From positions 1-64,000 of the forward strand of contig WHTS01000017.1 of the NCBI GenBank assembly GCA_009377585.1: a stretch of DNA of 64,000 nucleotides, in the 5' to 3' direction. Below are positions 8,750 to 28,709 of the stretch, piece after piece (position 1 is the first letter of the stretch; each line of letters begins with the position of its first letter). The notes beneath the pieces are model-generated. The model searched no databases, was not told where the DNA came from, and saw only the letters and a list, made by a program, of their open reading frames with translations. This stretch comes from Betaproteobacteria bacterium. Its GTDB lineage: Bacteria > Pseudomonadota > Gammaproteobacteria > Burkholderiales > WYBJ01. Both the position numbers and the translations under genes were made by a program.

Positions 8750-10768
8750 TCAGTCGAACAACGGCAGCCGTCCGCTCAATCGCGCCGCCCATTCGAGCGG
8801 ATCGAAGCGCGCCGCCCGTCCGCCGAGGCAATCGGACAGAAACGTCTCCGTTGCCCGCAACACGCGCAGGTGGTGCGCCCAATAGCCCATCGAATGTCCC
8901 ATCTCCGGAACGGTCACGTACTGCACGTGCCGTCCTCGGCTACGCAGGGCTTCGACCATCCGCGCGGATTGCTCGGCGCGAACCCGCACGTCGTTTTCGC
9001 CTTGCACGATGAGCACGGGGCGTTCGATCCGGTCCGCCCAGTTGAGCGGCGAGACCTTCTCCATGCGCGCCCGGTCGACCGGCACGGCCGGATCGCCGAC
9101 GTAGTTGTACCAGTAGCTGAGCTCGAGCTCCCAGTAGGGCGGAAAATCCTCGATCAGACTGACGAGATCGGTGGGTCCGGCGATATCGATCCCGCAGGCG
9201 AACAGTTCCGGCTCCCGGGCGAGCGCCATCAAGCTCGCATAACCGCCGTAGCTGTGGCCCATGACCGCGACCCGTGCCGGGTCGGCGATGCCTTTCTCGA
9301 TCGCCCAGCGCACGCCGTCGACGAGGTCGTCCTGCATGCGTCCACCCATCTCGCCCACCGCCGCAGTCAGGAACGAACGGCCATAGCCGGTAGAGCCGCG
9401 GAAATTGATGGCAAGCACGGCATAGCCGCGATTGGCGAGGAAGTGCGCCCGCAGCAGATCCTCGCTGTGACCCGGATCCGACCATACCACCCGCGACCAA
9501 GGCCCGCCGTGGACCAGCACCACCAAGGGCAGCCGCTTCTTGTCTCCTGTCCCGGGCGGACGCACGAGGTAGGCGGGAATCGCAAGACCGTCGCGGGCCT
9601 GGAACTCGACTGCTTCCGGCACCGTCAACAGACGCCCCAGCCCGTTCGCGTCGCTGTCGCCCAGCGGCTCGTGGGTTTTCCGCATGCGATCGAGCAGGTA
9701 GTAGCGCCGATCCGCGTGGGTGAATACGCCGATCACGAGACGCTTTTCGGCCGCGTCCATGGACACGATGTCGAAGCCGAAACGCACGCCGGCGTATTCG
9801 TCCAGCAGGGGTTTCAGGTCGGCCTCGAGCCCCGGGTCGAGGATGCGCGTGTGCGGATAATCCGCGTTGGTGCTGACGGTGAGCGGTGCACCGCTCACCT
9901 TGCTGGCCACGACCCGGCCCACGTCGGCGCCCGCCTCCTCGTGCACGAGCGCACCCACGCCGCTCGCCGTATCGACTTCGAACAGCGCCATGCGGTCGCG
10001 GCCCTTGTTGCTCAGCACCCAGGCCTTGCGGTGATCCGGCGATACACCGACCGCGCGGGTCACGTCCTCGCTCTCGCGCGACAACGCCGAGCGCGCGCGC
10101 AGTTCCGCCGAGCGTGGCTTACCCCGCGGGCGCGCGGCGACCTCGGACTTGCGCCAGCCGAGAACGGCGCCCTGCGCATCGGTTACAGGTGTGACGCCGT
10201 CGCCTGGATTGGCGGCGACCAGTTCCTCGGCGCCAGTGGCGAGATCGATCCGATAGAGATCGCGCACGTTGCGATCGCGCCGGTTGTGCAGCACCAGCAC
10301 GTGCTGCGGATCCGAATCCAGGATGCGATAGAGCCACACGCGCACACCGGGATACGGCGTCAGATCGCGCAGCTCGGCATCGGGATCATCCAGCTCCAGG
10401 CTGTACAGGTGGTGGTTTTCCGCGCCCGACTTGTCGTCCAGGATCAGCAGCCGCCGGCCGTCCGCCGACCAATGCGTGCCGCTGCCGCCGACGCGATACA
10501 CGTGCACCGAGCCGTCGGGGTTGCGCACGTGCAAGCGCCGGCCCCACCTGGACGGCCCGCTCCAGCGCAGCCGGCTGCCGTCGGGAGAGAAGGAAAATCC
10601 GTCGAGCCCGTGACGCCCGAATACGAACTTGTAGGTCGCAATGAGCTCGGGCAGCTCGGCTTCGCGCAGCGCCGGATGCACCGGGGCGCGCTCGCAGCCG
10701 GCGGCGAGCGTCGTGATCAGCACGCACAGCGCGACGTGCCGCCATACCGGACGCAGTCTAGGCAGCAA
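8750..10768 (-). CDS. S9-family prolyl oligopeptidase-like lipoprotein
   Basis: Predicted exported serine peptidase of the dipeptidyl-peptidase/acylaminoacyl-peptidase group. An N-terminal lipoprotein signal (ALCVLITTLAAGC) anchors it in the envelope. A long beta-propeller-like region precedes the alpha/beta-hydrolase domain, where the nucleophile GHSYGG, the acid in VQGENDVRV and the His in EMGHSMG are all present. The start is uncertain: TTG 10768 gives a 24-residue signal peptide, while GTG 10810 and TTG 10831 are in-frame alternatives. All overlap the upstream dehydrogenase gene, so translation is probably coupled. Its peptide substrate is unknown. Confidence 0.88.
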   Translation of the reverse strand: MLPRLRPVWRHVALCVLITTLAAGCERAPVHPALREAELPELIATYKFVFGRHGLDGFSFSPDGSRLRWSGPSRWGRRLHVRNPDGSVHVYRVGGSGTHWSADGRRLLILDDKSGAENHHLYSLELDDPDAELRDLTPYPGVRVWLYRILDSDPQHVLVLHNRRDRNVRDLYRIDLATGAEELVAANPGDGVTPVTDAQGAVLGWRKSEVAARPRGKPRSAELRARSALSRESEDVTRAVGVSPDHRKAWVLSNKGRDRMALFEVDTASGVGALVHEEAGADVGRVVASKVSGAPLTVSTNADYPHTRILDPGLEADLKPLLDEYAGVRFGFDIVSMDAAEKRLVIGVFTHADRRYYLLDRMRKTHEPLGDSDANGLGRLLTVPEAVEFQARDGLAIPAYLVRPPGTGDKKRLPLVVLVHGGPWSRVVWSDPGHSEDLLRAHFLANRGYAVLAINFRGSTGYGRSFLTAAVGEMGGRMQDDLVDGVRWAIEKGIADPARVAVMGHSYGGYASLMALAREPELFACGIDIAGPTDLVSLIEDFPPYWELELSYWYNYVGDPAVPVDRARMEKVSPLNWADRIERPVLIVQGENDVRVRAEQSARMVEALRSRGRHVQYVTVPEMGHSMGYWAHHLRVLRATETFLSDCLGGRAARFDPLEWAARLSGRLPLFD

Positions 10769-11756
10769 GTTGCCGGATCTGCGCGAGAAGCGAATCGGAC
10801 AGCGTGACACCTTCGGCTCGAGCCGTCGCAAGCGCCGCGTGGCGGCGCGAGCCGGGAAGCCGCACGCCTGCGTCCGCCGTCATGGCCGCAACCAGGGCCT
10901 CGATCCGGTCCAAGAATACTTCGCGTCCAGCCACGGCGTCCGGATCGATGGCAGCCAGGGCATGTCCGATCCGCGCGGGATCGCCGGGCTCGAAGAACGA
11001 GTCGTTTTCGAAGCCGAACGCGGCGCCGGTCAGGGCGCAGCACAGGAGCTCGACCGTGAGCGCCAGCATGGTCCCTTTCGCGCCGCCGATGGCGGCGAGG
11101 CTTCCGGTAAGCGCGGCTTTCGCGTCGGTGGTCGGATTGCCGTCTCGATCCAGCGCCCAGCCGAGCGGAATAGGCTTGCCGTGCTCGGCATGCAGCATGA
11201 TCTTGCCGCGCACGACCTCGGTGAGCGACAGATCGATCAGGAGCGGCGGCCCATCGCGGCGCGGGAACACGGCAGCGATCGGGTTGGTGCCGAAGAGCGG
11301 CCGCTTGCCGCCCCACGGGTTGATGGCCGCCGGCGAGTTGGTGAAGGCAAGTCCCACCATCCCGGCCTCGGACATGGGCTGCAGATGGTAGGCCATGACG
11401 CCGGCGTGGTGGCTGCCGGTCACACCCGCAAGCGCGATGCCGCACTGCTTCGCACGCGGGACCGCCTCGGCCGCAGCCAGCGCCAGAGCCTCATAAGCGA
11501 GCCCGCCGCCGGCATCGATCAGGCAACAACCTGCGTGGCTGCGCACGATGCGCGGCACCGCCGTTCCTTGCGCGCGTCCCGTGCGCAAGTGTCCGCAGTA
11601 GAGTGCGAGGCGTGCGAGCCCGTGGGTGGGAACGCCGCTCGCTTCGGCGTGCACGAGCGCTCTAGCCGTTGCGCGCGCCATGCTCGGCGCTGCGCCGGCG
11701 CGGCACAGCGCTGTCGCCGCGAGAGCAATCAGATCGGAGATCGAAACGAGCGGCAC
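10758..11756 (-). CDS. Ldh family malate/lactate-type oxidoreductase
   Basis: NAD(P)-dependent enzyme of the malate/L-lactate/ureidoglycolate dehydrogenase family (type 2), which is unrelated to classical Rossmann LDH. About 332 residues from GTG 11756, which has GGGG about 8 bp upstream; an in-frame ATG at 11837 would give a longer Arg-rich N-terminus. Family signatures visible: HGLARLALYC, TGSHHAGVMAYHLQP with the conserved His, and FTNSPAAINPWGG. Members reduce or oxidise 2-keto and 2-hydroxy acids, including delta-1-pyrroline-2-carboxylate and sulfolactate (ComC), so the substrate cannot be set from sequence. It overlaps the downstream S9 peptidase gene. Confidence 0.87.
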   Translation of the reverse strand: MPLVSISDLIALAATALCRAGAAPSMARATARALVHAEASGVPTHGLARLALYCGHLRTGRAQGTAVPRIVRSHAGCCLIDAGGGLAYEALALAAAEAVPRAKQCGIALAGVTGSHHAGVMAYHLQPMSEAGMVGLAFTNSPAAINPWGGKRPLFGTNPIAAVFPRRDGPPLLIDLSLTEVVRGKIMLHAEHGKPIPLGWALDRDGNPTTDAKAALTGSLAAIGGAKGTMLALTVELLCCALTGAAFGFENDSFFEPGDPARIGHALAAIDPDAVAGREVFLDRIEALVAAMTADAGVRLPGSRRHAALATARAEGVTLSDSLLAQIRQLAA

Positions 11757-16823: not shown

Positions 16824-16929
16824 GATCGTCCCTGTTCGGGTCGCATGCGAGGCGCGAAGCGTGCGATTCGCAGCGCAGGCCTGTCATCGGTTTGCGCGCG
16901 TACGCCGGCAGTCCGCCCGATGCGTTGGC

Positions 16930-16935
16930 TATAAT
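16930..16935 (+). promoter_or_regulatory. possible -10 element upstream of the IlvD/Edd-family gene
   Basis: A perfect TATAAT stands 108 bp before the ATG at 17044, in the 220-bp gap divergent from the antiporter. No convincing -35 hexamer lies 16-18 bp upstream, so this is only a candidate. Confidence 0.28.
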
Positions 16936-17043
16936 CCCCGGGCGCGCCTGCGCATCGCGGCTGCGCACATGCCGGCGCAAACCAAGCGCAACGCGCGCCG
17001 TGCAGCTCCACCATTGGCATTCAACCCCCTGCGGAGGCCCGAA

Positions 17044-18771
17044 ATGAGCGATTCCAGGCGAGGCATGCGCCGCGCCCTGACCAGCTACGGCGACGAAGCG
17101 TTCTCGCTGTTCCTGCGCAAGGCCTTCATCAAGGCGATGGGCTATTCGGACGATGCCCTGGCACGCCCGGTGATCGGAATCACCGATACCTACAGCGGCT
17201 TCAACGCCTGTCACCGCAATGTACCCGAACTGATCCAGGCGGTGAAGCGCGGGGTCATGCTCGCCGGCGGATTGCCGATCGAATTCCCGACCATTTCGCT
17301 GCACGAGTCGTTCTCGCATCCGACCAGCATGTATCTGCGCAACCTCATGTCGATCGACGTGGAGGAAATGATCCGCGCGCAGCCCATGGACGCGGTGGTG
17401 CTGATCGGCGGCTGCGACAAGACCGTTCCGGCCCTGCTGATGGGCGCGGCGAGCGCGAACACGCCGGCCATCGTGCTGGTGACCGGACCGATGATGACCG
17501 GTTCGCATCATGGCGAACGGCTCGGCGCATGCACCGATTGCCGGCGCTTCTGGGCCAAGTTCCGCGCCGGCGAGATCGACGAGCAGGAGATCAACGACCT
17601 CAACGCAGTGCTCGCACCGTCCGCCGGCACCTGCATGGTGATGGGCACCGCCAGCACCATGGCGTGCATGACCGAGGCACTGGGCATGATGCTGCCGGGC
17701 GGCGCGGCGATCCCCGCCGTGCATGCCGACCGGCTGCGTGCGGCCGAAGCCACCGGCGCGCGCGCCGTTGCAATGGCCGCTGAGGGACTCACGCCGGATC
17801 GGATCATGACGCCGCGCGCATTCGAAAATGCGCTGCGCATGCTGGCTGCGATCGGCGGCTCGACCAACGCGATCGTGCACATCGCCGCGGTCGCCGGCCG
17901 GCTCGGCATCGAGATCGATCTCGATGCGTTCGACCGGCTCGGCGACCAAACGCCCGTGCTGGTGGACCTGAAGCCCACCGGCCAGCACTACATGGACGAT
18001 CTGTTCAAGGCGGGCGGGGTCACGGCGATCCTGCGCGAATTGCAGCCGCTGCTCAATCTCGACTGCGTCACCGTCAGCGGCAAGACCCTGGGCGAGAACA
18101 TCGATCAAGCGCCCGCGTCGTTTCCGCAGGAGGTGGTGCGGCCGTTTTCCGATCCGATCTTCAAGCAAGGCGGTATCGCCGTTCTGCGCGGGAACATTGC
18201 GCCCAACGGAGCGATCATCAAGCAGGCGGCTGCTACGCCGGCGCTGCTGCAGCATACCGGCCGTGCGGTGGTGTTCAGCTCGCTGGAGGATCTCGCCGAG
18301 CGCGTCGATCGCGACGATCTCGACGTGCACGCGGACGACGTGCTCGTGCTGCAGAACGCAGGGCCCAAGGGCGCGCCCGGGATGCCCGAATCGGGTTATC
18401 TGCCGATTCCGCGCAAGCTCGCACGCCAGGGGGTGAAGGACATGGTCCGGATCTCGGATGCACGCATGAGCGGCACCGCCTTCGGCAGCATCGTGCTGCA
18501 CATTTCGCCCGAAAGCGCGGTGGGCGGTCCGCTCGCGCTGGTGAGAACGGGCGATCGCATCCAGCTCGATACCACGGGGCGGCGCATCGATCTGCTGGTC
18601 GACGACGCCGAGCTCGACAAGCGCAGGAAGACCTGGCGCGCACCCGAGCCGCGCGCCGAGGACGATCGCGGTTATCGCAAGCTCTTCCTCGAACAGGTCG
18701 AGCAGGCCGAGCGCGGCTGCGACTTCACGTTCCTCATGCCGGCCATGCGTGCTCGCTCGCCCGAACGCTAG
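17044..18771 (+). CDS. IlvD/Edd family dehydratase (sugar-acid dehydratase type)
   Basis: Removes water from a 2,3-dihydroxy acid to give a 2-keto-3-deoxy acid. 575 residues from ATG 17044, with GGAGG ahead of it. The three iron-sulfur cysteines are Cys56 (FNACHRN), Cys124 (GGCDKT, with Lys126 next to it) and Cys197 (SAGTCMVMGTAST). The N-terminal NACHRNVPELIQAVKRGVM matches the L-arabinonate/D-xylonate dehydratase branch more than biosynthetic IlvD, so I prefer a sugar-acid role. It converges on the SDH-like flavoprotein gene with only 6 bp between stops. It is not part of that operon but may serve the same catabolic island. Confidence 0.88.
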   Translation: MSDSRRGMRRALTSYGDEAFSLFLRKAFIKAMGYSDDALARPVIGITDTYSGFNACHRNVPELIQAVKRGVMLAGGLPIEFPTISLHESFSHPTSMYLRNLMSIDVEEMIRAQPMDAVVLIGGCDKTVPALLMGAASANTPAIVLVTGPMMTGSHHGERLGACTDCRRFWAKFRAGEIDEQEINDLNAVLAPSAGTCMVMGTASTMACMTEALGMMLPGGAAIPAVHADRLRAAEATGARAVAMAAEGLTPDRIMTPRAFENALRMLAAIGGSTNAIVHIAAVAGRLGIEIDLDAFDRLGDQTPVLVDLKPTGQHYMDDLFKAGGVTAILRELQPLLNLDCVTVSGKTLGENIDQAPASFPQEVVRPFSDPIFKQGGIAVLRGNIAPNGAIIKQAAATPALLQHTGRAVVFSSLEDLAERVDRDDLDVHADDVLVLQNAGPKGAPGMPESGYLPIPRKLARQGVKDMVRISDARMSGTAFGSIVLHISPESAVGGPLALVRTGDRIQLDTTGRRIDLLVDDAELDKRRKTWRAPEPRAEDDRGYRKLFLEQVEQAERGCDFTFLMPAMRARSPER

Positions 18772-18777
18772 CCGACC

Positions 18778-20514
18778 CTACGCGGCCTGCTGATCGCGCA
18801 GCAGCGTCTCGCCCGGCTGCACGCGGGTGAACTCCACCGGGCGTGTATCGATCTCGAACTTGCCCTCGGTCAGGCGCACGCAGGTGAAGCGCGAGGTCGC
18901 GAGATCGCCGGTATTGGGGAAGTCGGAACGGAAGTGCGCACCGCGCGAATCCTCGCGCGCCTGCGCCGCGGCACGGATCGACTTGCTCACGAGCAGCAGG
19001 TTCTCGAGATTCAGCCAATCGTGCCAGGTCAGATTGAATGCAAGATCGCTATCCGCAACGCCGGTCTCGTTCAACCTCGCTTCGAGCGCATCGAGACGTT
19101 CCGACGCGCGCGCGAGGCTCGCCGCATCGCGCACGATGCCGACCTCGTCCCACATGACCTCGTGGAGCGTATCGCGGATCGCAGCCAGATCGCCCGGCTT
19201 GCGCGTCAGCGGATGGCGCGCGCGCGCCATCGCCGCATCGATGATGTTCTCGTCGGGCTCGCGGAATTCGCCGTGGCGGCCGAGCCACTGCGCGATCCGA
19301 TCACCCGCGATGCCGCCATAGACGGTGGAGTTCGCGACCCCGTTGCCACCCAGGCGGTTTGCCCCGTGCACCCCACCCGTATCCTCGCCGGCGGCGAACA
19401 AGCCCGGCAGCTCGGTGGTGCAATCGGTGCCGAAGACCACCCCGCCCATCATGTAGTGCGCGGTCGGCACGACCTCCACCAATCCGCCGGCCAGGTCGAA
19501 GCCGCAGTCCTCGCAGCGCTCGACCATGCCTTTGAACATGCGCCGCACGTTCTCCGGACCGAGGTGGCTCATCGAGATGTAGACGCCGCCGTTGGGCGTG
19601 ACGTTGCCGCAGCGCATTTCTGCGAAGATCGCGCGCGAGACGATATCGCGCGTGGCGCGTTCGCCGCGCGGATCGTAGTTGTGCATGAAGCGTTCGCGCG
19701 CGCCGTTCCAGAGCTCGCCGCCGGACCCGCGCAATCCTTCCTCCAGCACGGTGCCGGTCATGCGCGTATGCGGTCCCGCCAGCAAGCCCGTCGGATGGAA
19801 CTGCACCATCTCCATGTCGCGCAGGGTAAGCCCCGTGTGCAACGCCATCGCCATGCCGTCGCAGGTCTTGTCGCCCGAGGGCGTGTGGTACTTGTACATG
19901 GTCGGTCCGCCGCCGGTGGCGAGCAGAACGGCTTTGGCTTGCACGAACACGAAACCGCCGCTACGGATGTCGATCATGAGCACGCCCGCGATGCGGCTGC
20001 CGTCCTTCGAGCGCACCAGCGCGATCGCGCGATGCTCTTCCAGGCGCCGTATGCTGCGTGCCCAGACCTGCTCGGCGAGGCGGTTGATGATCTCGATCCC
20101 GGTCAGGTCGCCCTTGTGTACCGTGCGATCGAAGGTCTGGCCGGCAAATGCCTTCTGGTGCACGCTGCCATCGGGATTGCGATCGAAGAAGCAGCCCAGC
20201 TCGTTCTCCAGCTCGTGGATGCGCTCGATGGCGACTTCCACCAACTGCCAGGCGAGCTCCTGGTGCGGCAGCCACTTGCCGCCTTCGATCGTGTCCATGA
20301 AATGGCGCTCGACCGAATCTTCCTTCGCCAGCGCGACGTTGTACCCGCCCTGGACCATGCGGGTGCAACCGCACTTGCCGAGCAGCCCCTTCACCGCCAC
20401 CGTGATGTCCAGCGCAGGATCGGCCTTGTGCGCGTGCAGGGCGCCGAACAGGCCCGCGCCGCCCGAGCCCAGGATCAGGAGGTCGGTTTGGGTTCGTCGC
20501 AATTTGATTGTCAT
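18778..20514 (-). CDS. succinate dehydrogenase/fumarate reductase-like flavoprotein subunit
   Basis: 578 residues from ATG 20514 (MTIKLRRTQTDLLILGSGGA), with GGAAAC about 8 bp upstream. FAD-binding GSGGAG (16-21) is present. SDH active-site residues are conserved: His240 (QFHPTGL), Arg294 (RDIVSRAI), His353 (PTAHYMMGG) and Arg387 (GANRLGGNG). The histidine that carries covalent 8-alpha-FAD in SdhA/FrdA is replaced by Cys50 in GKCGCTRMVQGGYN, as judged by spacing to the QGG motif. FAD is therefore probably non-covalent. SdhB, C and D-like partners are in the same operon about 4 kb upstream. Substrate could be succinate, fumarate or a substituted dicarboxylate. Confidence 0.85.
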   Translation of the reverse strand: MTIKLRRTQTDLLILGSGGAGLFGALHAHKADPALDITVAVKGLLGKCGCTRMVQGGYNVALAKEDSVERHFMDTIEGGKWLPHQELAWQLVEVAIERIHELENELGCFFDRNPDGSVHQKAFAGQTFDRTVHKGDLTGIEIINRLAEQVWARSIRRLEEHRAIALVRSKDGSRIAGVLMIDIRSGGFVFVQAKAVLLATGGGPTMYKYHTPSGDKTCDGMAMALHTGLTLRDMEMVQFHPTGLLAGPHTRMTGTVLEEGLRGSGGELWNGARERFMHNYDPRGERATRDIVSRAIFAEMRCGNVTPNGGVYISMSHLGPENVRRMFKGMVERCEDCGFDLAGGLVEVVPTAHYMMGGVVFGTDCTTELPGLFAAGEDTGGVHGANRLGGNGVANSTVYGGIAGDRIAQWLGRHGEFREPDENIIDAAMARARHPLTRKPGDLAAIRDTLHEVMWDEVGIVRDAASLARASERLDALEARLNETGVADSDLAFNLTWHDWLNLENLLLVSKSIRAAAQAREDSRGAHFRSDFPNTGDLATSRFTCVRLTEGKFEIDTRPVEFTRVQPGETLLRDQQAA

Positions 20515-20694: not shown

Positions 20695-21312
20695 TCAAAG
20701 CTTCGCTGCGACGCCGAGCTCGGCGAGCACCTTGGCGCGCCGGTCGCGCGCGGAGTCGGCGACGTTCGTGTACAGGTTGCCGCCGTGGCTATCCATTGCG
20801 ACCAGCAAGGGGCCGAAGCCCTTGACGCGGAATTTCCATAACGACTCGGGATTCAAGTCGTCCAGATCCACGTCTTCGATGGCCTCGATCCAGGTGGTTT
20901 CGAGCGCGGCCGCGCCGCCGATGATGGCGAGATAAGCTCCGCCCAGTTCGGCAAACGCCTTCTGCGACTCGGCGAGCAGACCGCCCTTGCCGATGATGAT
21001 CCGCACGCCGTATTGTGCCATGAGCGGGCGGGTGAATCGCTCCATGCGCGCGCTCGTGGTCGTGCCCACGCAGAGCGGCTCGTAGCCCGTCGGCGTGGCC
21101 TGCGTTTCGCCGATCCACTTCACGTTCGGCGCGGTGTGCACGGCCGCATGCCCGTTTAGGTCGAAGCGGGTCTTGCGGCCGCGGTCGAACATGTGGATCT
21201 GGGTCGCATCGCGGATGCCGTACAGCGTGCCGTTGAGCGTCACGGTATCGTTGACGCGCAGCGCGCGCACCTGCTGCTCGTCGATCGGCATGTCGAACTC
21301 GTGATGGGCCAT
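20695..21312 (-). CDS. class I fumarase/tartrate dehydratase family hydro-lyase, beta subunit
   Basis: 205 residues, matching the C-terminal half of FumA/FumB and the TtdB type. Landmarks are the Asp/Arg-rich N-terminal region, HTAPNVKWIGETQATPTGYE, GTTTSARMERF and IIGKGGLLAESQKAF. The partner alpha subunit gene ends 63 bp upstream. Together they would form a [4Fe-4S] hydro-lyase adding water to fumarate, mesaconate or the oxaloacetate enol (tartrate dehydratase); sequence alone does not separate these. ATG 21312. Confidence 0.9.
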   Translation of the reverse strand: MAHHEFDMPIDEQQVRALRVNDTVTLNGTLYGIRDATQIHMFDRGRKTRFDLNGHAAVHTAPNVKWIGETQATPTGYEPLCVGTTTSARMERFTRPLMAQYGVRIIIGKGGLLAESQKAFAELGGAYLAIIGGAAALETTWIEAIEDVDLDDLNPESLWKFRVKGFGPLLVAMDSHGGNLYTNVADSARDRRAKVLAELGVAAKL

Positions 21313-21375: not shown

Positions 21376-22251
21376 TCAGAAGCCGTATTCGACGCCCGCC
21401 GGCGTGAAGGTTGCCCGCGCCCGCCGCGCCGAATGGCATTGCATGTTGACCGCCACCGGATTCATGGTGATGTGCGTGGCCGCGGTCTCCACGTGCACGG
21501 CGAAGGCGGTCGAATCGCCGCCGAGACCTTGCGCACCGACGCCCAGCTCGTTCACGACCGCGGACAGCCCGCGTTCGAGCTCGGCGCCTTCCGGGTCCTC
21601 GCACACCGAGCCCAGAGCCCGCGTCGCCGCCACCTTGGACAGGTGCACGCACAGGTCAGCCGTTCCACCTACGCCCACGCCGACGATCGTCGGCGGGCAG
21701 GTCTTGCCGCCAGCATCGAGTACGCAATCGATGACGAAGGTCTTGATGGCGTCGATCCCGTCGGCGGGAATCGCCATTTTGAGCCAGGAGTTGTTCTCCG
21801 AGCCGCTGCCCTTGGGAATCATCTCGATCGAGAGAACATCGGGCGCGGGCGAAAAATCGATGTGGATAACCGGCACCGAGCGGCCGCACGACGTGTGCTC
21901 GTTTTTCCGCGTGACCGGGTGCACGACCGAGGAGCGCAGCGGATGCTCCTTGGTGGCGCGGGCGCATCCGGCCACGATCGCCTCCTTCAAGCGATGACCA
22001 TCCACCGTCACGTTCGCACCGATGACCACGTTGTAGATCGGGATGCCGGTGTCCTGGCACAGCAGGTTGTCGTTCGCCTCGGCCACCGTGATGTTGCGGA
22101 TCATCGTGCCCAGCACCGACTTTCCGGTCGCGTCGGTCTCGGCCGCGTCCAGGCGCCGGAAACCTTCCTTGATGTCCGGCGGCAACAGCTTGAGCGCGCG
22201 AATATAGAGCGCCTTGGCCGCTTCCTCGACTTGCGTCAGATCGACGTTCAT
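21376..22251 (-). CDS. class I fumarase/tartrate dehydratase family hydro-lyase, alpha subunit
   Basis: 291 residues, matching the N-terminal half of class I fumarases and TtdA. The iron-sulfur ligating cysteines are likely in LLCQDTGIPIY, HTSCGRSVP-type and AGGKTCPPTIVGVGVGG segments. GGTADLCVHLSKVAATRALG is a family hallmark. It pairs with the beta subunit gene immediately downstream and follows the Bug-type binding-protein gene by 21 bp. The two-gene form is common in anaerobes and in some betaproteobacterial catabolic operons. Confidence 0.9.
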   Translation of the reverse strand: MNVDLTQVEEAAKALYIRALKLLPPDIKEGFRRLDAAETDATGKSVLGTMIRNITVAEANDNLLCQDTGIPIYNVVIGANVTVDGHRLKEAIVAGCARATKEHPLRSSVVHPVTRKNEHTSCGRSVPVIHIDFSPAPDVLSIEMIPKGSGSENNSWLKMAIPADGIDAIKTFVIDCVLDAGGKTCPPTIVGVGVGGTADLCVHLSKVAATRALGSVCEDPEGAELERGLSAVVNELGVGAQGLGGDSTAFAVHVETAATHITMNPVAVNMQCHSARRARATFTPAGVEYGF

Positions 22252-22272: not shown

Positions 22273-23235
22273 TCAGTCGACGTACAGATTGCGTGCCTTG
22301 ATGATCTTCGCCCAGCGCACGGACTCTTCCTTGATCGCTTGCGCGAACGCCGCCGGCGTGTTGGCCACCGGCTGCATGCCGATCTGCTCGAAGCGCGCAC
22401 GCACCTCGGCGGCTTGCAGCACCTTGGCGGCGTCGTTGTATACCTTGTCGATCACCGCGCGCGGCGTGCCCTTCGGCGCCACCAGCCCGAACCAGCCGAG
22501 ATTCTCGAATCCGGGCAGCGTCTCCGCGACCGCAGGCACGTTGGGCACTTGCTTCGACCGCTCCTTGCTCGTCACCGCGAGCGCGCGCAGCTTCCCCTGC
22601 TTCACGAAGCCGATCGCGGCCGACAGGTTCGGCGTCACGAAATGGATTTGCCCCGCTACCAGGTCGGCAATGGCCGGCCCCTCGCCCTTGTAGGGGACGT
22701 GCGTCACGTCGATGCCGGCCGCGGTGACGAAATTCTCCGCCGCAAGATGCGTCTGCGTCCCCACGCCCGCCGAACCGAAGTTCATGGTCCTGGGCTTGGT
22801 CTTCGCCATCGCGATGAAATCCTTGAGGCTCTTGGCAGGGAAGCTGGCATTGACGGCTACGATCTGCGGACCGCTCGCAACGTTGGTGATGGCGACGAGG
22901 TCGGTATCGGGATTGAACGGCATCTTGCGATACATGTGCTGGTTGGCCGTTACTATCGAGCCGGAAGTCATCAGCAGGGTATAGCCGTCGGGCGCCGCCT
23001 TGGCGACGATATCGCCACCGATGTTGCCGGCCGCACCCGCGCGGTTGTCGACCACGACCGTCTGCCCCCAGACCTCGGTCAGCCGCTGCGCTACGATGCG
23101 GGTGACGATGTCGGTTGCTCCCCCCGGTGAAAACGGCACCACGATCCGTACCGGGCGCGCCGGATAGCTCTGCGCGTTGACGGCCGGAGCCAAAAGGGCA
23201 AGTGCCGTCAACACGCTCGTGCTCGATATGCGCAT
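22273..23235 (-). CDS. Bug/TctC family tripartite tricarboxylate transporter substrate-binding protein
   Basis: 320-residue periplasmic binding protein from ATG 23235, preceded by GAGGAGG. Cleavable signal peptide (MRISSTSVLTALALLAPAVN, cleavage after Ala-Gln likely). Family motifs are YPARPVRIVVPFSPGGATD, RAGAAGNIGGDIVAKAAPDG and YKGEGPAIADLVAGQ. Bug proteins bind carboxylates and similar small anions. No TctA or TctB membrane gene is present in the window, which is usual for orphan Bug genes in Burkholderiales. The ligand is probably the substrate of the surrounding operon. Confidence 0.93.
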   Translation of the reverse strand: MRISSTSVLTALALLAPAVNAQSYPARPVRIVVPFSPGGATDIVTRIVAQRLTEVWGQTVVVDNRAGAAGNIGGDIVAKAAPDGYTLLMTSGSIVTANQHMYRKMPFNPDTDLVAITNVASGPQIVAVNASFPAKSLKDFIAMAKTKPRTMNFGSAGVGTQTHLAAENFVTAAGIDVTHVPYKGEGPAIADLVAGQIHFVTPNLSAAIGFVKQGKLRALAVTSKERSKQVPNVPAVAETLPGFENLGWFGLVAPKGTPRAVIDKVYNDAAKVLQAAEVRARFEQIGMQPVANTPAAFAQAIKEESVRWAKIIKARNLYVD

Positions 23236-23334
23236 GATGTTCCTCCTCGTCGTTTGATTGGATATCGCCACCGTAATTCAACTTCGGTCCGTCGGCCGCC
23301 CCGGCAAGCCGTGCCGCATGCTGGCGCGGCCCGC

Positions 23335-24711
23335 TTACAAGCCCAGCGCCTGTACCGTGAGCTTGCGCAGCTCGCGCTGGAGTTTGTCCCGCACGCCCCG
23401 ATGGTTGCGGCTCCTGTTCAGATTGGCGAGCTCGTACGGATCGTTCTCCAGGTCGTAGAGTTCGTCGAGCTCGCCGTTGCGTCCGCGGTTCACCCAGCGG
23501 ATGTACTTGTAGCACTCGGTGCGCACGCACTTGTAAGTCATCCCGACCAGCCACGGCATGGCGTTCTCGGCCCAGTATTCCACCAGGAGCGAGCGGCGCC
23601 AGCCGGCGCGCTTGCCTGCGAGCAACGGCAGCAGCGATCGGCCCTGCACCTGGGCACCCGGCTTGCCGCCCGCGAGCTGAATCAACGTGGGCGCGATATC
23701 CTGGCACAGGACGAGATCGCCCACCCGCGTACCCGCCTTGATGCGGCGAGGGAAGCGGGCGATGAAGGGCGCGCGGATGCCCTCCTCGTAAGGGAATCGG
23801 CGTTCGGGACCGAGCCCGTGTTCGCCGAAGAAATAGCCGTTGTCGCCGAGGAAGACGATGCAGGTGTTGTCGAGCTCGCCCTTGCGCTCCAGCGCCTCGA
23901 GCAGCATGCCGACGCCTTCGTCGACCGCGGCCATCATGCGTGCTCGCAACCGGATCTCCTCCTGCTCGCCGGAGTGGATCGCAGCGAGCATCGCGCGTGA
24001 CTTCTCCGAGCGCTTCAGCTCGAACGCTTCGCGCCAAGCGGGCTTCGACTTCACCACCTCGGCCGCGCTCAGCATGTTGGGCTTGCGCGGAAAGACGCAG
24101 TCGCGATAGAGATCCTGGTGGCGCTCGGCAACGCGGTAGCCTTCCATCGCGAACGAGCCGTCGGCGGCCTGCTCCGCATCCGGGTGCACCGCCTTGTGGG
24201 CGAAGAACAGCGACCAGGGCTTTGCGTGCTTGCGTTCGACGAACTCGACCGCCATCTCGTTCATGATGTCGGTCACGTAGCCACGATGCTGCACGTACTT
24301 GCCATTGACGTTGAGCAGCGGATCGTTCAGCCGCCCATGGCCGTCGAACGCGACCCAGTGGTCGTAGCCGGGACGGGGCTTGCCGTCGTTGCCCATGTGC
24401 CATTTGCCGATGTGCGCGGTCTCGTAGCCCAGGCGCTGCAGCTCGAGGTGATAATTGGGCAGGCGGTGGCTCGCCAGGTCGCGCGCGACGTTGTCGATGA
24501 TGCCGTGCCGGCTCGCATACTGGCCGCTCAGGATCGAGGCCCGGTTGGGCGAGCAGATCGGCGTGGTGTGGAAGGCGCGCTCGAGGATGGCCCCCTCGTG
24601 CGCGATGCGATCGATGTGCGGCGTGCGCATGTACGGGTGGCCGCCCGCGCCGAACTCGTCGTAGCGCAGGTCGTCGATCAGGATCACCAGCAGATTCGGT
24701 TTGACCGCCAA
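23335..24711 (-). CDS. formylglycine-dependent type I sulfatase
   Basis: 458 residues starting at TTG 24711 (AVKPNLLVILIDDLRYDEFG follows). The metal ligands Asp13-Asp14, the CxPxR core (Cys53-Ser-Pro-Asn-Arg57 in CSPNRASILSG), GKWHMG and LGDNGYFFGEHG are all present. The Cys should therefore be matured to formylglycine by an FGE or AtsB-like enzyme. No signal peptide is seen, so it is probably cytoplasmic and acts on an imported sulfate ester, or possibly a phosphonate ester. It lies between the SDH-like D gene and the Bug gene, an unusual place for a sulfatase. Confidence 0.9.
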   Translation of the reverse strand: MAVKPNLLVILIDDLRYDEFGAGGHPYMRTPHIDRIAHEGAILERAFHTTPICSPNRASILSGQYASRHGIIDNVARDLASHRLPNYHLELQRLGYETAHIGKWHMGNDGKPRPGYDHWVAFDGHGRLNDPLLNVNGKYVQHRGYVTDIMNEMAVEFVERKHAKPWSLFFAHKAVHPDAEQAADGSFAMEGYRVAERHQDLYRDCVFPRKPNMLSAAEVVKSKPAWREAFELKRSEKSRAMLAAIHSGEQEEIRLRARMMAAVDEGVGMLLEALERKGELDNTCIVFLGDNGYFFGEHGLGPERRFPYEEGIRAPFIARFPRRIKAGTRVGDLVLCQDIAPTLIQLAGGKPGAQVQGRSLLPLLAGKRAGWRRSLLVEYWAENAMPWLVGMTYKCVRTECYKYIRWVNRGRNGELDELYDLENDPYELANLNRSRNHRGVRDKLQRELRKLTVQALGL

Positions 24712-24750: not shown

Positions 24751-25098
24751 CTAGACGAGGTTCATCAGAAACGCTCCGCCCGCCACGACGGTCAGGCCGG
24801 CCGCCACCGCCAGCAGACTTTTTTGCCAATCGCACCACGGCAGGAATTCGAGCATGAGCAGCCGGATGCCGCCGGCCATGTGGGCGGCGAGGAGCACCAC
24901 CAGCAAAACCTCGCCCGCCTTGACGAGCGGCTGCTCGGTCCAGGCGAGCGCCGACTGCAGCCCGGCCTCACCCTTCAATGCGGTAGCCAGCGTAAGGAAG
25001 TGCACCGGCAAAAACAGCGCCAGTAGCAGCCCCGATATGCGATGCACCAGGAACGCCCACCAGGCGGGGTGGGCGCGTGCGCGCCAGTCGCTTTTCAT
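24751..25098 (-). CDS. SDH-like membrane anchor subunit (D position)
   Basis: 115 residues with three hydrophobic segments. FLVHRISGLLLALFLPVHFL carries the His-Arg-x-Ser signature of the SdhC/FrdC cytochrome b fold, and LLAAHMAGGIRLLMLEF a further candidate heme-ligand His. Its ATG overlaps the preceding subunit's TGA by 4 bp (ATGA), so translation is coupled. Together with the 112-residue partner it would anchor the flavoprotein and iron-sulfur subunits and pass electrons to quinone. Confidence 0.84.
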   Translation of the reverse strand: MKSDWRARAHPAWWAFLVHRISGLLLALFLPVHFLTLATALKGEAGLQSALAWTEQPLVKAGEVLLVVLLAAHMAGGIRLLMLEFLPWCDWQKSLLAVAAGLTVVAGGAFLMNLV

Positions 25099-25433
25099 GC
25101 CACCACCGCCCACACCGCGCGCAAGCCCAGGGCGACCAGCACCAGCGCGATGATCGCGACGATAACGTCGAGCTTGCGCCCGCGCAGGGCGAACCATTCG
25201 TTCAGGATCGCGCGCAGTCCGATCGGCGCATGCACCGCGACCGCAATCACGAAGATCGCGTAGAACGCGCCCCAGGTGAAGCTGCCGCGGGTGCGCTCCA
25301 GGATCTCCGCGGCGCTCAGGCCGCCGCGAACCGCGTAGATCAGCGTCACCAGGTGCACTGCCACGCAAAGCGCGAGCACCATCGCGCTGATGCGTTGCGC
25401 CGCCCACAGATAGGCCTGCGAGCGCGCAATCAT
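25095..25433 (-). CDS. SDH-like membrane anchor subunit (C position)
   Basis: 112 residues with three hydrophobic helices. AAQRISAMVLALCVAVHL has the Arg-x-Ser...His pattern of SDH/FRD cytochrome b subunits, and FVIAVAVHAPIGLRAIL a second His. Located directly after the SdhB-like gene and overlapping the second anchor gene by 4 bp. The order B-C-D, with A ten genes' distance away, differs from the usual sdhCDAB, so this is probably a second, specialised complex and not the TCA-cycle enzyme. Confidence 0.83.
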   Translation of the reverse strand: MIARSQAYLWAAQRISAMVLALCVAVHLVTLIYAVRGGLSAAEILERTRGSFTWGAFYAIFVIAVAVHAPIGLRAILNEWFALRGRKLDVIVAIIALVLVALGLRAVWAVVA

Positions 25434-25482: not shown

Positions 25483-26196
25483 TCAGATGCGCCCCTTGAG
25501 CAAGGCGCCCAAGGTCGCTCGTTTCAAGCCCGCGATCGCCGCGGTCGGCGAAATCTTCTTCGGACAGCGCTCGGTGCAGCTCATGTGGGTATGGCATGCG
25601 TGGCAACCGGCGTCGCCCGCCACCGCGGCCAGGCGCTCGTCGCGGGCACTATCGCGCACGTCGTTCACCAGCGTCCAGGCCCGATTCAGCGCGGCGGGTC
25701 CGAGATATTCGGGATTCCAGGCGACCACGTCGCACGAGGCGTAACACACACCGCAGCCGATGCATTCGATTCCGGCGTCGACCTGTTCACGTTCCTTCGA
25801 ATCGGGTTTCACGCGCGCGAAGTCGTCCTTGCGCGTCGCGGTCGACTGGAACTGTCCGCGCGCCCGAGCCCACTTGTCGAAGAACGTGCTCATGTCGGTC
25901 ACCAGATCCTTGATGACCGGCAGATTCTTCAGCGGAGCGATCTCCAGCGTGTCGTCCTCGATCACCTGGTCGACGTGCGTGCGACAGGTCCAGCGTGCGC
26001 GGCCGTTTACGCTCATTGCGCACGAGCCGCACATGCCGACACGGCAGGCGAAGCGATACGACAGCGTGGGATCGAGCGCGCGCTGGACGTGCGTGACGAC
26101 GTCGAGAACCGTCTGGCTCTCGAGCCGCGGCACTTCGAAATCCTGGAAGGCGCCTTGTTCGCGTCCTCGCCAGACCCTGACCTTGAGAGTGCTCAT
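25483..26196 (-). CDS. SDH/fumarate reductase-like iron-sulfur subunit
   Basis: 237 residues from ATG 26196 (MSTLKVRVWRGREQGAFQDF). The three cluster motifs of SdhB/FrdB are visible: [2Fe-2S] in CRVGMCGSCAMSVNG plus a later Cys, [4Fe-4S] in CIGCGVCYASC, and the third cluster in CHACHTHMSCTERCPK. It transfers electrons from the flavoprotein (18778-20514) to the membrane anchors encoded next. It follows the lyase large subunit gene in the same operon. Confidence 0.9.
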   Translation of the reverse strand: MSTLKVRVWRGREQGAFQDFEVPRLESQTVLDVVTHVQRALDPTLSYRFACRVGMCGSCAMSVNGRARWTCRTHVDQVIEDDTLEIAPLKNLPVIKDLVTDMSTFFDKWARARGQFQSTATRKDDFARVKPDSKEREQVDAGIECIGCGVCYASCDVVAWNPEYLGPAALNRAWTLVNDVRDSARDERLAAVAGDAGCHACHTHMSCTERCPKKISPTAAIAGLKRATLGALLKGRI

Positions 26197-26265
26197 GTCA
26201 TGCAAACCCGAGCCCGGTCGCACCGCCGGGATGCAAGGACGACGCGATCACCCGCCGCGCAATCC

Positions 26266-27435
26266 CTAGGCGCTTTCGTACAGCCGGGTCAACACGAACT
26301 CCCGATGTCCGAGCGCTTCGGCGCACGTCAAGCGCCCGTTGCAGGTGCGCAGCATGATCTCGAGCAATTCGTCGCCGCACTGGTCCATGTTCTTCTCCCG
26401 CTGCAGCAGCCCGGAGACGTCGAGGTCGATGTGCTCGCTCATCGTGCGGCAGGTGCGCGGATTCGCGGAGAGCTTGATGACCGGGAGGATCGGGTTGCCG
26501 ATCACGTTGCCCTGCCCGGTCGGGAAGAAATGCACCACGTAGCCCGCGGCGGCCACCAGCGTCACCATCTCGGCGGCCGCGGACGACGAATCCATGAACC
26601 ACAGGCCCGGGCCGGTTGGCTCCTCGGCCTTGTCGAGCACACCGATCACCTTGCACTTGTGGCCGATCTTCTGGATGTTGCCGAGCGCCTTCTCCTCGAT
26701 CGTGGTCAAGCCACCGGCGATATTGCCCTTGGTGGGCTGGGAGTCGGACAGATCACTCGTCTTGTGCCGCTCGATCACTTCCTGGTAGCGGTCGAACATG
26801 TACATGAAGCGCTCGCGCACTGCCGGCGTGGCGCAGCGGCTGGCGACGATCAACTCGCCGCCGGTGATCTCGGTGGTCTCGCCGAAGCACATCGTCACGC
26901 CCAGCGGATCGAGCTTGTCGAACGCATTGCCCACGGTCGGATTGGAGCCGCAACCGGAGGTCGTATCGGACTCGCCGCACTTGGTCGACACCCACAGCTC
27001 GCCGATGGGGCAGTCCTCGCGCCGCAATTCGGACGCCCACTGCACGTATTCCTTGGCCACCTTGGAGGCGCGGAAGATCGTGTCGTGGTCGCCGTGCAGC
27101 TCGATGCCGAAACCGGTCACCGGCTTGCCGGTCTTGGCGATGCCCTCGACGACGCGCTGCATCCAGCCGTCTTCGATGCCGATCACGACCACCGCGGCGA
27201 CGTTCGGATTGCAGCCCGCACCGATCAGGGTGCGGAAATGCAGCTCCAGGTCGGCGCCGAACTGCAGCCGGCCGTAGGGGTGCGGAATAGCCAGCGTGCC
27301 CTTGATGTTGTGGGCCACCGCTTCGCAGGCCGCATTCGACAGATCGTCGACCGGCAGGATGATGACGTGGTTGCGTACGCCCACGCGGCCGTTTTCGCGC
27401 CGGTAGCCGCGGAAAGTCGTCTTGCTCGATATCAT
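26266..27435 (-). CDS. UxaA-family lyase large subunit, (2R)-sulfolactate sulfo-lyase SuyB-like
   Basis: 389 residues, a stand-alone C-terminal domain of the altronate/galactarate dehydratase (UxaA) family. It opens with [20 protein letters not shown] and carries [47 protein letters not shown] and [20 protein letters not shown]. Separate small and large subunits and these lengths match SuyAB, which splits 3-sulfolactate into pyruvate and sulfite, and from memory the N-terminal text resembles SuyB strongly. A sugar-acid dehydratase of the same family is the main alternative. The small subunit is encoded 51 bp upstream. Confidence 0.8.
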
Positions 27436-27486: not shown

Positions 27487-27768
27487 CTACCAGCGCTTGG
27501 TCTTGAGATTGTGGACGTGGCAGTGCTCGCCCACCTTCATGTCGGCCACCGCTTTGCCGATGTCATGACCGTACTTGATGACCGTGTCGCCGTTCTTGAT
27601 CGGCTGCGTGGCGACTTTGTGGCCGATCGGGATGTCGTTCAGGGCCTTGACGTGCACGGTCGAGTCGCCCTCCATCACCCAGCCGGCGAGCTCCTGTCCG
27701 GCTTTGACATTCTCGACCACGACGACACCGACGCTGTCCTTCTTATCGTGAACCAGGAAATGAATCAT
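27487..27768 (-). CDS. UxaA-family lyase small (SAF-domain) subunit, SuyA-like
   Basis: 93 residues from ATG 27768, preceded by AAGGAG. It corresponds to the N-terminal SAF domain of altronate dehydratase: DSVGVVVVENVKAG, IPIGHKVATQPIKNGD, and the C-terminal metal-binding-like GEHCHVHNLKTKRW. First gene of the operon, with a good promoter upstream and the GntR regulator divergent. In the family this domain forms part of the active site with the large subunit. Confidence 0.82.
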   Translation of the reverse strand: MIHFLVHDKKDSVGVVVVENVKAGQELAGWVMEGDSTVHVKALNDIPIGHKVATQPIKNGDTVIKYGHDIGKAVADMKVGEHCHVHNLKTKRW

Positions 27769-27870
27769 CGTTGCTCCTTGGTAGCGCAAGCGGCAGGCGG
27801 GCCGCAGGAGGCGGACGAACGCTGGATTGCGCGTTCCGGCTTCGAAGCCTTTGCAAAGCGGACGCTTGCG

Positions 27871-27899
27871 ATGGTAGCCAGCGCCTCGATCGAAGTCAA
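27871..27899 (-). promoter_or_regulatory. sigma-70 promoter of the ten-gene catabolic operon
   Basis: Minus-strand TTGACT (27899-27894), 17-bp spacer, TACCAT (27876-27871), about 100 bp upstream of the small-subunit start at 27768. Strong -35 and fair -10 at optimal spacing, in the gap divergent from gntR. Confidence 0.65.
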
Positions 27900-27903
27900 C
27901 TAG

Positions 27904-27919
27904 ATGACCTATATGACCT
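27904..27919. promoter_or_regulatory. candidate GntR/HutC operator (direct repeat)
   Basis: ATGACCT occurs twice, at 27904-27910 and 27913-27919, with 9-bp periodicity. It sits 5 bp upstream of the -35 element of the catabolic operon and 32 bp before the gntR start codon. Position fits an operator shared by both genes. It is a direct repeat instead of the palindrome more usual for the family, so binding is inference. Confidence 0.4.
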
Positions 27920-27950
27920 CGCGCCCCGCGGTGCTACCATAGCCGTCACC

Positions 27951-28709
27951 ATGAACATCGCCAACGAAGCCCGGCTGCTCGCCGGTAAACCCGGCGGCCA
28001 GCCGCTGTACAAGGGCGTGAAGCTGCGCCTCACGCAGGGTCTCATGGCGAGCGAATGGCGTCCAGGCCAGGCGATTCCGAGCGAGTCACGCCTGGCCGAG
28101 CGCTTCGGCGTTTCGCTCGGCACTGTACGCAAGGCGATCGACGAGCTGGTGGCCGAGAAGATCCTCCTGCGCCAGCAGGGACGCGGGACCTTCGTCGCCG
28201 CGCACACGCCCGACCGGACGCTGTTCTACTTCTTCCACATCGCGGGCCGCGATGGCCGCAAGGAAACGCCAGAGATCGAGCTGCTCGCCTTCAGCCGCGG
28301 GCGCGCGGACGCCGACGAGGCAGCCAGGCTCGCGATCGCTCGCGGCGAGCGGGTCCTGCGCATACGAAACCTGCTGCGCCTGGCGGGCGACCCCGTAGTC
28401 ATCGACGACATCATCATTGCCACGCAGCTCGTTCCGGGCCTCGATCGAGCGGGCTTCGGTGGACGGGACGGAACCATCTACGGCCTGTACCAGGCGCGCT
28501 ACGGTATCAGCGTGATTCGCATCTCGGAGCGCCTGGGCGCCACCCTGGCCGACCCGGAGAGCGCCCGCCTGCTGGCGGTGCCCGATGCAACGCCGCTGCT
28601 TCGCATCGCGCGCATTGCCTACACCTATCACGACCGGCCCGTCGAGCTGCGCTACAGCCTGGTCGATACCACCGCGCATGAGTACGTGAGCGACCTCGTG
28701 AAGCAGTAG
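27951..28709 (+). CDS. GntR family transcriptional regulator, HutC subfamily
   Basis: 252 residues from ATG 27951. N-terminal winged helix (LRLTQGLMASEWRPGQAIPS, then RLAERFGVSLGTVRKAIDEL and LLRQQGRGTFVA). A C-terminal UTRA ligand-binding domain includes RIRNLLRLAGDPVVIDDIII and PVELRYSLVDTTAHEY. It is divergent from the catabolic operon and is presumably its local repressor, released by a pathway intermediate. Convergent with the TPR-like gene. Confidence 0.92.
   Translation: MNIANEARLLAGKPGGQPLYKGVKLRLTQGLMASEWRPGQAIPSESRLAERFGVSLGTVRKAIDELVAEKILLRQQGRGTFVAAHTPDRTLFYFFHIAGRDGRKETPEIELLAFSRGRADADEAARLAIARGERVLRIRNLLRLAGDPVVIDDIIIATQLVPGLDRAGFGGRDGTIYGLYQARYGISVIRISERLGATLADPESARLLAVPDATPLLRIARIAYTYHDRPVELRYSLVDTTAHEYVSDLVKQ

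Follow-up and report, generated by a model that had tools for sequence, protein, structure and literature searches.

The window analysed here, a stretch of 64,000 nucleotides from a Betaproteobacteria bacterium (contig WHTS01000017.1), encodes a succinate dehydrogenase-like flavoprotein that, judging from its sequence and gene context, is probably part of a quinone-linked, membrane-bound, complex II-like 3-sulfopropanoate dehydrogenase. Its gene lies in an operon on the minus strand, in the order SuyA-, SuyB-, SdhB-, SdhD- and SdhC-like genes, sulfatase, TctC/Bug, fumarase alpha-type, fumarase beta-type and flavoprotein. The relevant features of the window are the following:

10722..11747, minus strand: Ldh2-family dehydrogenase (41% to a Polynucleobacter ComC-like protein)
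18778..20514, minus strand: SdhA/TfrA-like flavoprotein, 578 aa, proposed catalytic subunit of 3-sulfopropanoate dehydrogenase (FAD_binding_2 and Succ_DH_flav_C, TfrA model, family alignment)
19738..19743, minus strand: Glu258-Glu259 codons, equivalent to FrdA Thr244-Glu245 (positions calculated from the start codon and the residue numbers)
20365..20367, minus strand: Cys50 codon (TGC), FAD-His position
20695..21312, minus strand: fumarase/tartrate dehydratase beta-type (TtdB-like), proposed sulfoacrylate hydratase beta (PF05683; TIGR00723, 136.7 bits)
21376..22251, minus strand: fumarase alpha-type (TtdA-like), proposed sulfoacrylate hydratase alpha (PF05681; TIGR00722 and NF004885 over cut-off)
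22273..23271, minus strand: TctC/Bug-type solute-binding protein (PF03401)
23335..24711, minus strand: sulfatase, CSPNR motif read from the sequence (PF00884 and PF16347)
24751..25098, minus strand: SdhC-like cytochrome b membrane anchor, HRISG motif (PF01127)
25095..25433, minus strand: SdhD-like membrane anchor (PF01127)
25483..26223, minus strand: SdhB-like iron-sulfur subunit, all three cluster motifs (TIGR00384, 201 bits, over cut-off)
26266..27435, minus strand: SuyB-like (R)-sulfolactate sulfo-lyase large subunit (80.5% identity to the C. pinatubonensis homologue)
27487..27789, minus strand: SuyA-like small subunit, SAF type, start codon tentative (profile and homologue comparison)
27771..28709, plus strand: GntR-type regulator, divergent, true start probably inside the ORF (homologous ORF divergent from suyA in relatives)

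Proteins encoded by the operon

The flavoprotein has the FAD_binding_2 and Succ_DH_flav_C domains of SdhA and FrdA. It shares about 30-35% identity with E. coli FrdA/SdhA and resembles them in fold (Foldseek, TM 0.81-0.84 to the best FrdA chains), which confirms a complex II fold only. Among the matches listed (25 of 30), none reached its NCBIfam cut-off. The best was to TfrA of the CoM/CoB thiol:fumarate reductase, TFR (NF004900; 496.9 bits against a cut-off of 718), while NadB, of the same superfamily, scored 346 against 453 bits; we know of no such operon for NadB. Automatic annotation labels the family's proteins 'FAD-binding protein' or 'fumarate reductase'. As in E. coli complex II, the partners are an SdhB-like subunit, here with motifs for all three iron-sulfur clusters, and two membrane anchors. 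This is unlike TFR: the SdhB-like protein (246 aa) is short and covers only positions 2-212 of the 488-position TfrB model, whose C-terminal part we take to be HdrB-like. The neighboring pair belongs to the class I fumarase (TtdAB) type, with PF05681 and PF05683 subunits.

The SuyAB-like proteins form a two-subunit UxaA-type pair close to SuyB of a known sulfonate cluster. The large subunit shares 80.5% identity with the UxaA protein encoded beside hpsN/hpsO in Cupriavidus pinatubonensis, and 70% with the homologue of S. mexicanum, which is encoded beside suyA-, yeiH-, slcC- and comC-like genes. SuyAB of C. pinatubonensis JMP134 is described as an (R)-sulfolactate sulfolyase (PMC12890257, PMC9594981), according to a 2026 review SuyAB was identified in that strain, and S. 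mexicanum is named as a carrier of SlcC, ComC and SuyAB (PMC12421959). Two Cys of GarD are replaced in the SuyB-like protein of the window, in agreement with PMC6336799. With the SuyAB pathway of C. pinatubonensis and Paracoccus the operon shares SuyA/B; its relatives also share SlcC- and ComC-like genes, TauE and hpsN/O. The upstream complex II-like dehydrogenase and fumarase-like hydratase go beyond that pathway and are not described for SuyAB in the literature searched. A second suyAB set (contig C101, 5147-7671; SuyB 67%) is present in the genome, accompanied by several Bug genes and one of the Ldh2 family; no SlcC homologue was found there at E 1e-60. The Polynucleobacter ComC-like protein compared with the window's Ldh2-family dehydrogenase has L-sulfolactate dehydrogenase as its best NCBIfam match, below cut-off.

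The sulfatase gene sits between the SdhC-like and Bug genes, a position shared by about a dozen betaproteobacterial relatives. A 3-sulfopropanoate substrate does not explain it, and this counts against our reading. An IlvD/Edd-type dehydratase gene (family read from the sequence; 16861-18771) adjoins the operon, and IlvD/Edd-type genes are annotated near the operon also in Methylobacterium oryzae and Paracoccus seriniphilus (4400-6097 in L107 and 21442-23117 in L128).

The flavin position and the substrate pocket

An earlier note on this DNA had proposed that Cys50 stands where SdhA and FrdA have their FAD-linking histidine, and the analysis upholds this. The motif G-K-C-G-C-T-R-M-V-Q-G-G places the Cys five residues ahead of QGG, PDB alignments lay it on the 'SHT..(Q/E)GG' segment of FrdA, and exchanging Cys50 for His raises the score with the SdhA/FrdA model TIGR01812 from 329.8 to 334.7 bits (+4.9 bits). 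The loop ahead of Cys50 is one residue longer than in SdhA (eight against seven residues from the preceding Lys to Thr), so that the MAFFT gap falls exactly beside Cys50; the assignment to the His column was therefore made by distance to QGG and by profile scores.

At least 588 genome stretches encode a relative of the flavoprotein. In the window and the best 80 of these, the His of the covalent 8alpha-N3-histidyl FAD site is replaced by Cys without exception (81/81); the whole GCTRMVQGGYN block, and TRMVQGGYNVA after the Cys, are equally fixed, and position 48 varies (C in 51, S in 25, T in 5). All 15 family rows of the alignment likewise retain GCTRMVQGGYN; they count the window gene twice (as the window and as L090) and reach down to 49% identity, with Rhodococcus jostii RHA1 (52%) and the archaeon Natribaculum (49%) among them; L126 to L131, added later, stand outside this residue-by-residue check. 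Each of the 14 SdhA-type rows aligned with them has SHT(V)..QGG instead, the canonical SdhA of the same genome included. Conservation on this scale shows that Cys50 is no accident. One 4.1-kb IMG/VR contig, the sole match in one viral-contig scan, encodes part of a 79% identical relative and is probably a misassigned bacterial fragment.

On profile evidence, a Cys at this position is not unique to the family. The TfrA model also prefers it (C 419.7, H 413.2 and S 414.3 bits), losing 6.5 bits on the change to His and 5.4 on the change to Ser, so that TfrA itself, by profile substitution alone, evidently has Cys there. NadB also has no covalent His, and its profile scores S above both C and H. 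Since the TfrA model shares the Cys, the absence of the His speaks for membership of a known subgroup within the superfamily and not for a one-off loss.

The active-site His and Arg residues of SdhA/FrdA are kept. PDB and family alignments equate H240, H353 and R387 with FrdA H232, H355 and R390, as the earlier note had it. They give the role of the catalytic Arg (FrdA R287) to R289, in a TRD motif, and not to R294 as claimed there; both arginines are conserved. Glu259 (FrdA Glu245) is kept as well. The residue before it is not: FrdA Thr244, presumably a ligand of the C4 carboxylate, is replaced by Glu258, which was fixed in all 43 family sequences aligned, whereas the SdhA rows have T in 13 of 14 and S in one. 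Changing Glu258 to Thr raises the scores with TfrA (+3.6), SdhA/FrdA (+2.8) and NadB (+2.6 bits), and all three families therefore expect Thr. Glu258 adjoins a six-residue insertion, LLAGxxTR(M/L/I)TG, found in every family row aligned; it is one residue shorter in the Rhodococcus and Natribaculum rows and carries a conserved R/K.

By these comparisons the family-specific change is the exchange of Thr244 for Glu258, and not Cys50; it is the larger departure, and the earlier note had missed it. Glu258 in place of this Thr, together with the insertion, thus remodels the pocket at its substrate end, and this is better evidence of another substrate than Cys50, from which the earlier note had argued for one. 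The likely effect of Glu258 and the inserted loop is to adapt the site to the end of the substrate that is not a carboxylate. An acidic Glu258 suggests no obvious preference for an anionic sulfonate, which counts against 3-sulfopropanoate.

The flavin linkage bears on what such an enzyme could do. The His-FAD bond raises the potential by about 100 mV and is needed for succinate oxidation (PMC10238741, PMC9557727); relatives that hold FAD non-covalently are confined to fumarate reduction, and once the bond is removed the potential falls by about 90-150 mV (PMC9557727). In the literature searched we found no statement on non-covalent FAD in TFR. By analogy with TFR, whose FAD is non-covalent, the FAD of a protein with Cys50 is probably non-covalent too. 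An FAD linked to Cys50 is conceivable as an alternative; monoamine oxidase binds its FAD through sulfur. An oxidising enzyme with Cys for His must either tolerate a lower potential, tune it through the pocket, or hold FAD through sulfur. An AlphaFold model (43-row alignment, mean pLDDT 77) fell below 50 pLDDT at residues 44-61, and its Cys50-FAD geometry was set aside.

Sulfonate genes around the family

We compared the neighborhoods of 44 family loci of at least 19 kb, taken from the best 80 of at least 588 (36 shorter loci were left out), with 15 stretches of about 20 kb around canonical SdhA genes in related genomes. Genes of sulfonate metabolism were found at the family loci only: suyB in 27 of 44, suyA in 28, ldh2 in 25, slcC in 12, TauE in 18 and SsuA/SsuC-like ABC parts in 10, against 0 of 15 SdhA loci in each case. 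Any of suyAB, slcC and tauE was present at 35/44 family loci and 0/15 SdhA loci (p 3e-8, a value that overstates independence, the loci being related to each other). SdhB was, as expected, common to both (43/44 and 14/15). HpsN (about 80% identical) occurred in three of the 44 loci, and suyB in 36 of the best 80 of all lengths. Neither suyB nor tauE was in view in nine of the 44 large loci (L028, L042, L055, L058, L062, L064, L065, L066 and L073). In L042, L054 and L078 the flavoprotein has no SdhB or fumarase-like neighbors, with a TRAP transporter in L054 and L078; these loci may differ in function.

Co-occurrence extends to whole genomes. Among 276 genomes of the class, eight carry the flavoprotein, 12 suyB and six both; with the window's own genome excluded (n=275) the counts are seven, 11 and five (Fisher p 7e-7; per genus 3e-5), a suyB match at threshold being absent from two of the seven flavoprotein-bearing genomes.

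Other candidate markers were set aside. TauE belongs to a generic family present in 14 of 14 control genomes and was rejected as sole evidence. A TPP enzyme encoded at 22 of the 80 loci matched models of 2-hydroxyacyl-CoA lyase and acetolactate synthase best, below cut-off, and was dropped as a sulfopyruvate decarboxylase or Xsc. The aldehyde-dehydrogenase link to homotaurine was weak: such enzymes, which would make 3-sulfopropanoate, lie near in only one of 44 loci, so that this compound would need to be imported.

Of 13 plasmid regions around flavoprotein matches, 11 are annotated; TauE/SafE appears in nine of these, YeiH or a putative sulfate exporter in seven and either in ten; two name a sulfite oxidase or dehydrogenase. 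The region of Sulfitobacter S190 has neither TauE/SafE nor YeiH/sulfate exporter annotated. The operon of M. nodulans is flanked by a sulfite dehydrogenase, cytochromes, TauE and a sulfate exporter, and on Paracoccus plasmids it lies beside YeiH, TauE and an SlcC/ComC-like pair. Plasmid pFER3 of P. ferrooxidans combines the operon with an ABC set (presumably of the sulfonate type), YeiH and TauE; it also has TctAB together with an SlcC/ComC-like pair, a group of hisD/SDR/galactitol-type genes that resembles hpsNOP and, farther along at 359713, suyB. The NT-25 region adds a sulfolactaldehyde-reductase-like and a gabD-like gene. On the unannotated pRHL1 of RHA1, tblastn located suyB, slcC-, ldh2- and tauE-like genes, sdhB, flavoprotein, ttdA and ttdB within 24 kb. 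The haloarchaea Natribaculum and Haloarcula carry the flavoprotein, an SdhB-like protein, TauE and UxaA pairs. Both have no fumarase pair but an argH-annotated (argininosuccinate) lyase between the TauE/UxaA genes and the flavoprotein (10200-11702 in L111 and 10278-11780 in L129), possibly an unrelated sulfoacrylate hydratase. In Sulfitobacter THAF37 a 3-sulfinopropanoyl-CoA desulfinase is encoded about 11 kb from the operon (L108, 24415-25587), a possible link to C3 sulfinate metabolism.

Proposed pathway and its alternatives

A complex II-like dehydrogenase and a fumarase-like hydratase encoded beside a sulfo-lyase fit, step for step, a route from 3-sulfopropanoate through sulfoacrylate to sulfolactate. 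The complex of flavoprotein and SdhB-, SdhC- and SdhD-like subunits would oxidise 3-sulfopropanoate to 3-sulfoacrylate, passing electrons from the flavin through three iron-sulfur clusters to quinone. The class I fumarase-like pair would add water to give 3-sulfolactate. Where SlcC/ComC-like dehydrogenases are encoded, they would switch its configuration; (R)-sulfolactate would be split by SuyAB into pyruvate and sulfite, the latter to be exported via TauE/YeiH or oxidised. The series would mirror succinate, fumarate and malate with a sulfonate replacing one carboxylate. The sequence features, the operon, its conservation and the co-occurrence are observed; substrate, direction, product stereochemistry and flavin linkage are what we infer here. 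Points against this reading are the nine large loci with neither suyB nor tauE in view, the two flavoprotein-bearing genomes lacking a suyB match at threshold, the scarcity of nearby aldehyde dehydrogenases, and the lack of an SlcC homologue at E 1e-60 in the window's own genome.

3-Sulfopropionate arises in sulfoquinovose fermentation and in homotaurine metabolism. A 2024 paper (PMC11489063) states that its breakdown was unreported save in a thesis on Roseovarius nubinhibens, by way of sulfoacrylate and sulfolactate, and gives no genes; a January 2026 review calls the mechanism of Bilophila unclear. We found no genes assigned to this route in the open-access literature searched.

Other substrates could be drawn from the same genes. 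The same three enzyme types would suit sulfosuccinate, taken through sulfofumarate and sulfomalate to oxaloacetate with desulfonation by the SuyAB-like lyase, and the exchange of Thr for Glu makes a pocket unlike that of SdhA. We nevertheless consider this very unlikely: SuyB is 80.5% identical to an enzyme of a C3-sulfonate (DHPS/sulfolactate) cluster, and the neighbors are SlcC-, ComC- and HpsN-like C3 genes. The literature searched held nothing on desulfonation of sulfosuccinate with release of sulfite, which says little. A dicarboxylate dehydrogenase acting on a substituted succinate, for instance methylsuccinate, with sulfonate genes merely adjacent, would agree with the TctC/Bug-type binding proteins and fumarase-like pair, which are general for C4-C6 acids, with the nine large loci that have neither suyB nor tauE in view, and with Sulfitobacter S190, where no sulfonate genes are near. 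It is made quite unlikely by suyAB lying within the same operon in the window and by the greater frequency of sulfonate genes at family loci than at SdhA loci, seen again in Actinomycetota and Haloarchaea.

The direction of the reaction can be questioned as well. A fumarate or sulfoacrylate reductase with low-potential, non-covalent FAD, the direction that the earlier note had offered as an alternative to another substrate, draws on the TfrA profile's preference for Cys and on the restriction of relatives with non-covalent FAD to fumarate reduction. That direction was not borne out. Gln55 precedes GG as in the SdhA rows, the SdhC/D-like anchors are of the quinone type with an HRISG motif, the SdhB-like subunit is far shorter than the TfrB model, and the hydratase, sulfo-lyase and sulfite or sulfate exporters or oxidases of relatives suit catabolic oxidation; several hosts are, we assume, aerobic. 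We regard the reductive direction as highly doubtful. The case for another substrate did gain, from Glu258, the insertion and the sulfonate-degradation gene context, and oxidation of 3-sulfopropanoate remains our preferred reading.

A bolder version would make 3-sulfopropanoate:quinone oxidoreductase a widespread third class of complex II, with 8alpha-S-cysteinyl FAD at Cys50 raising the potential for oxidation and, together with the fumarase-like hydratase and SuyAB, supplying the missing pathway of 3-sulfopropanoate mineralisation in Proteobacteria, Actinomycetota and haloarchaea; in that full form we think it unlikely. If the 3-sulfopropanoate assignment itself is right, it would put named genes to a gap in 3-sulfopropanoate degradation, describe how complex II has been adapted to a sulfonate, and offer a natural test of whether oxidation by such enzymes needs the covalent flavin bond.
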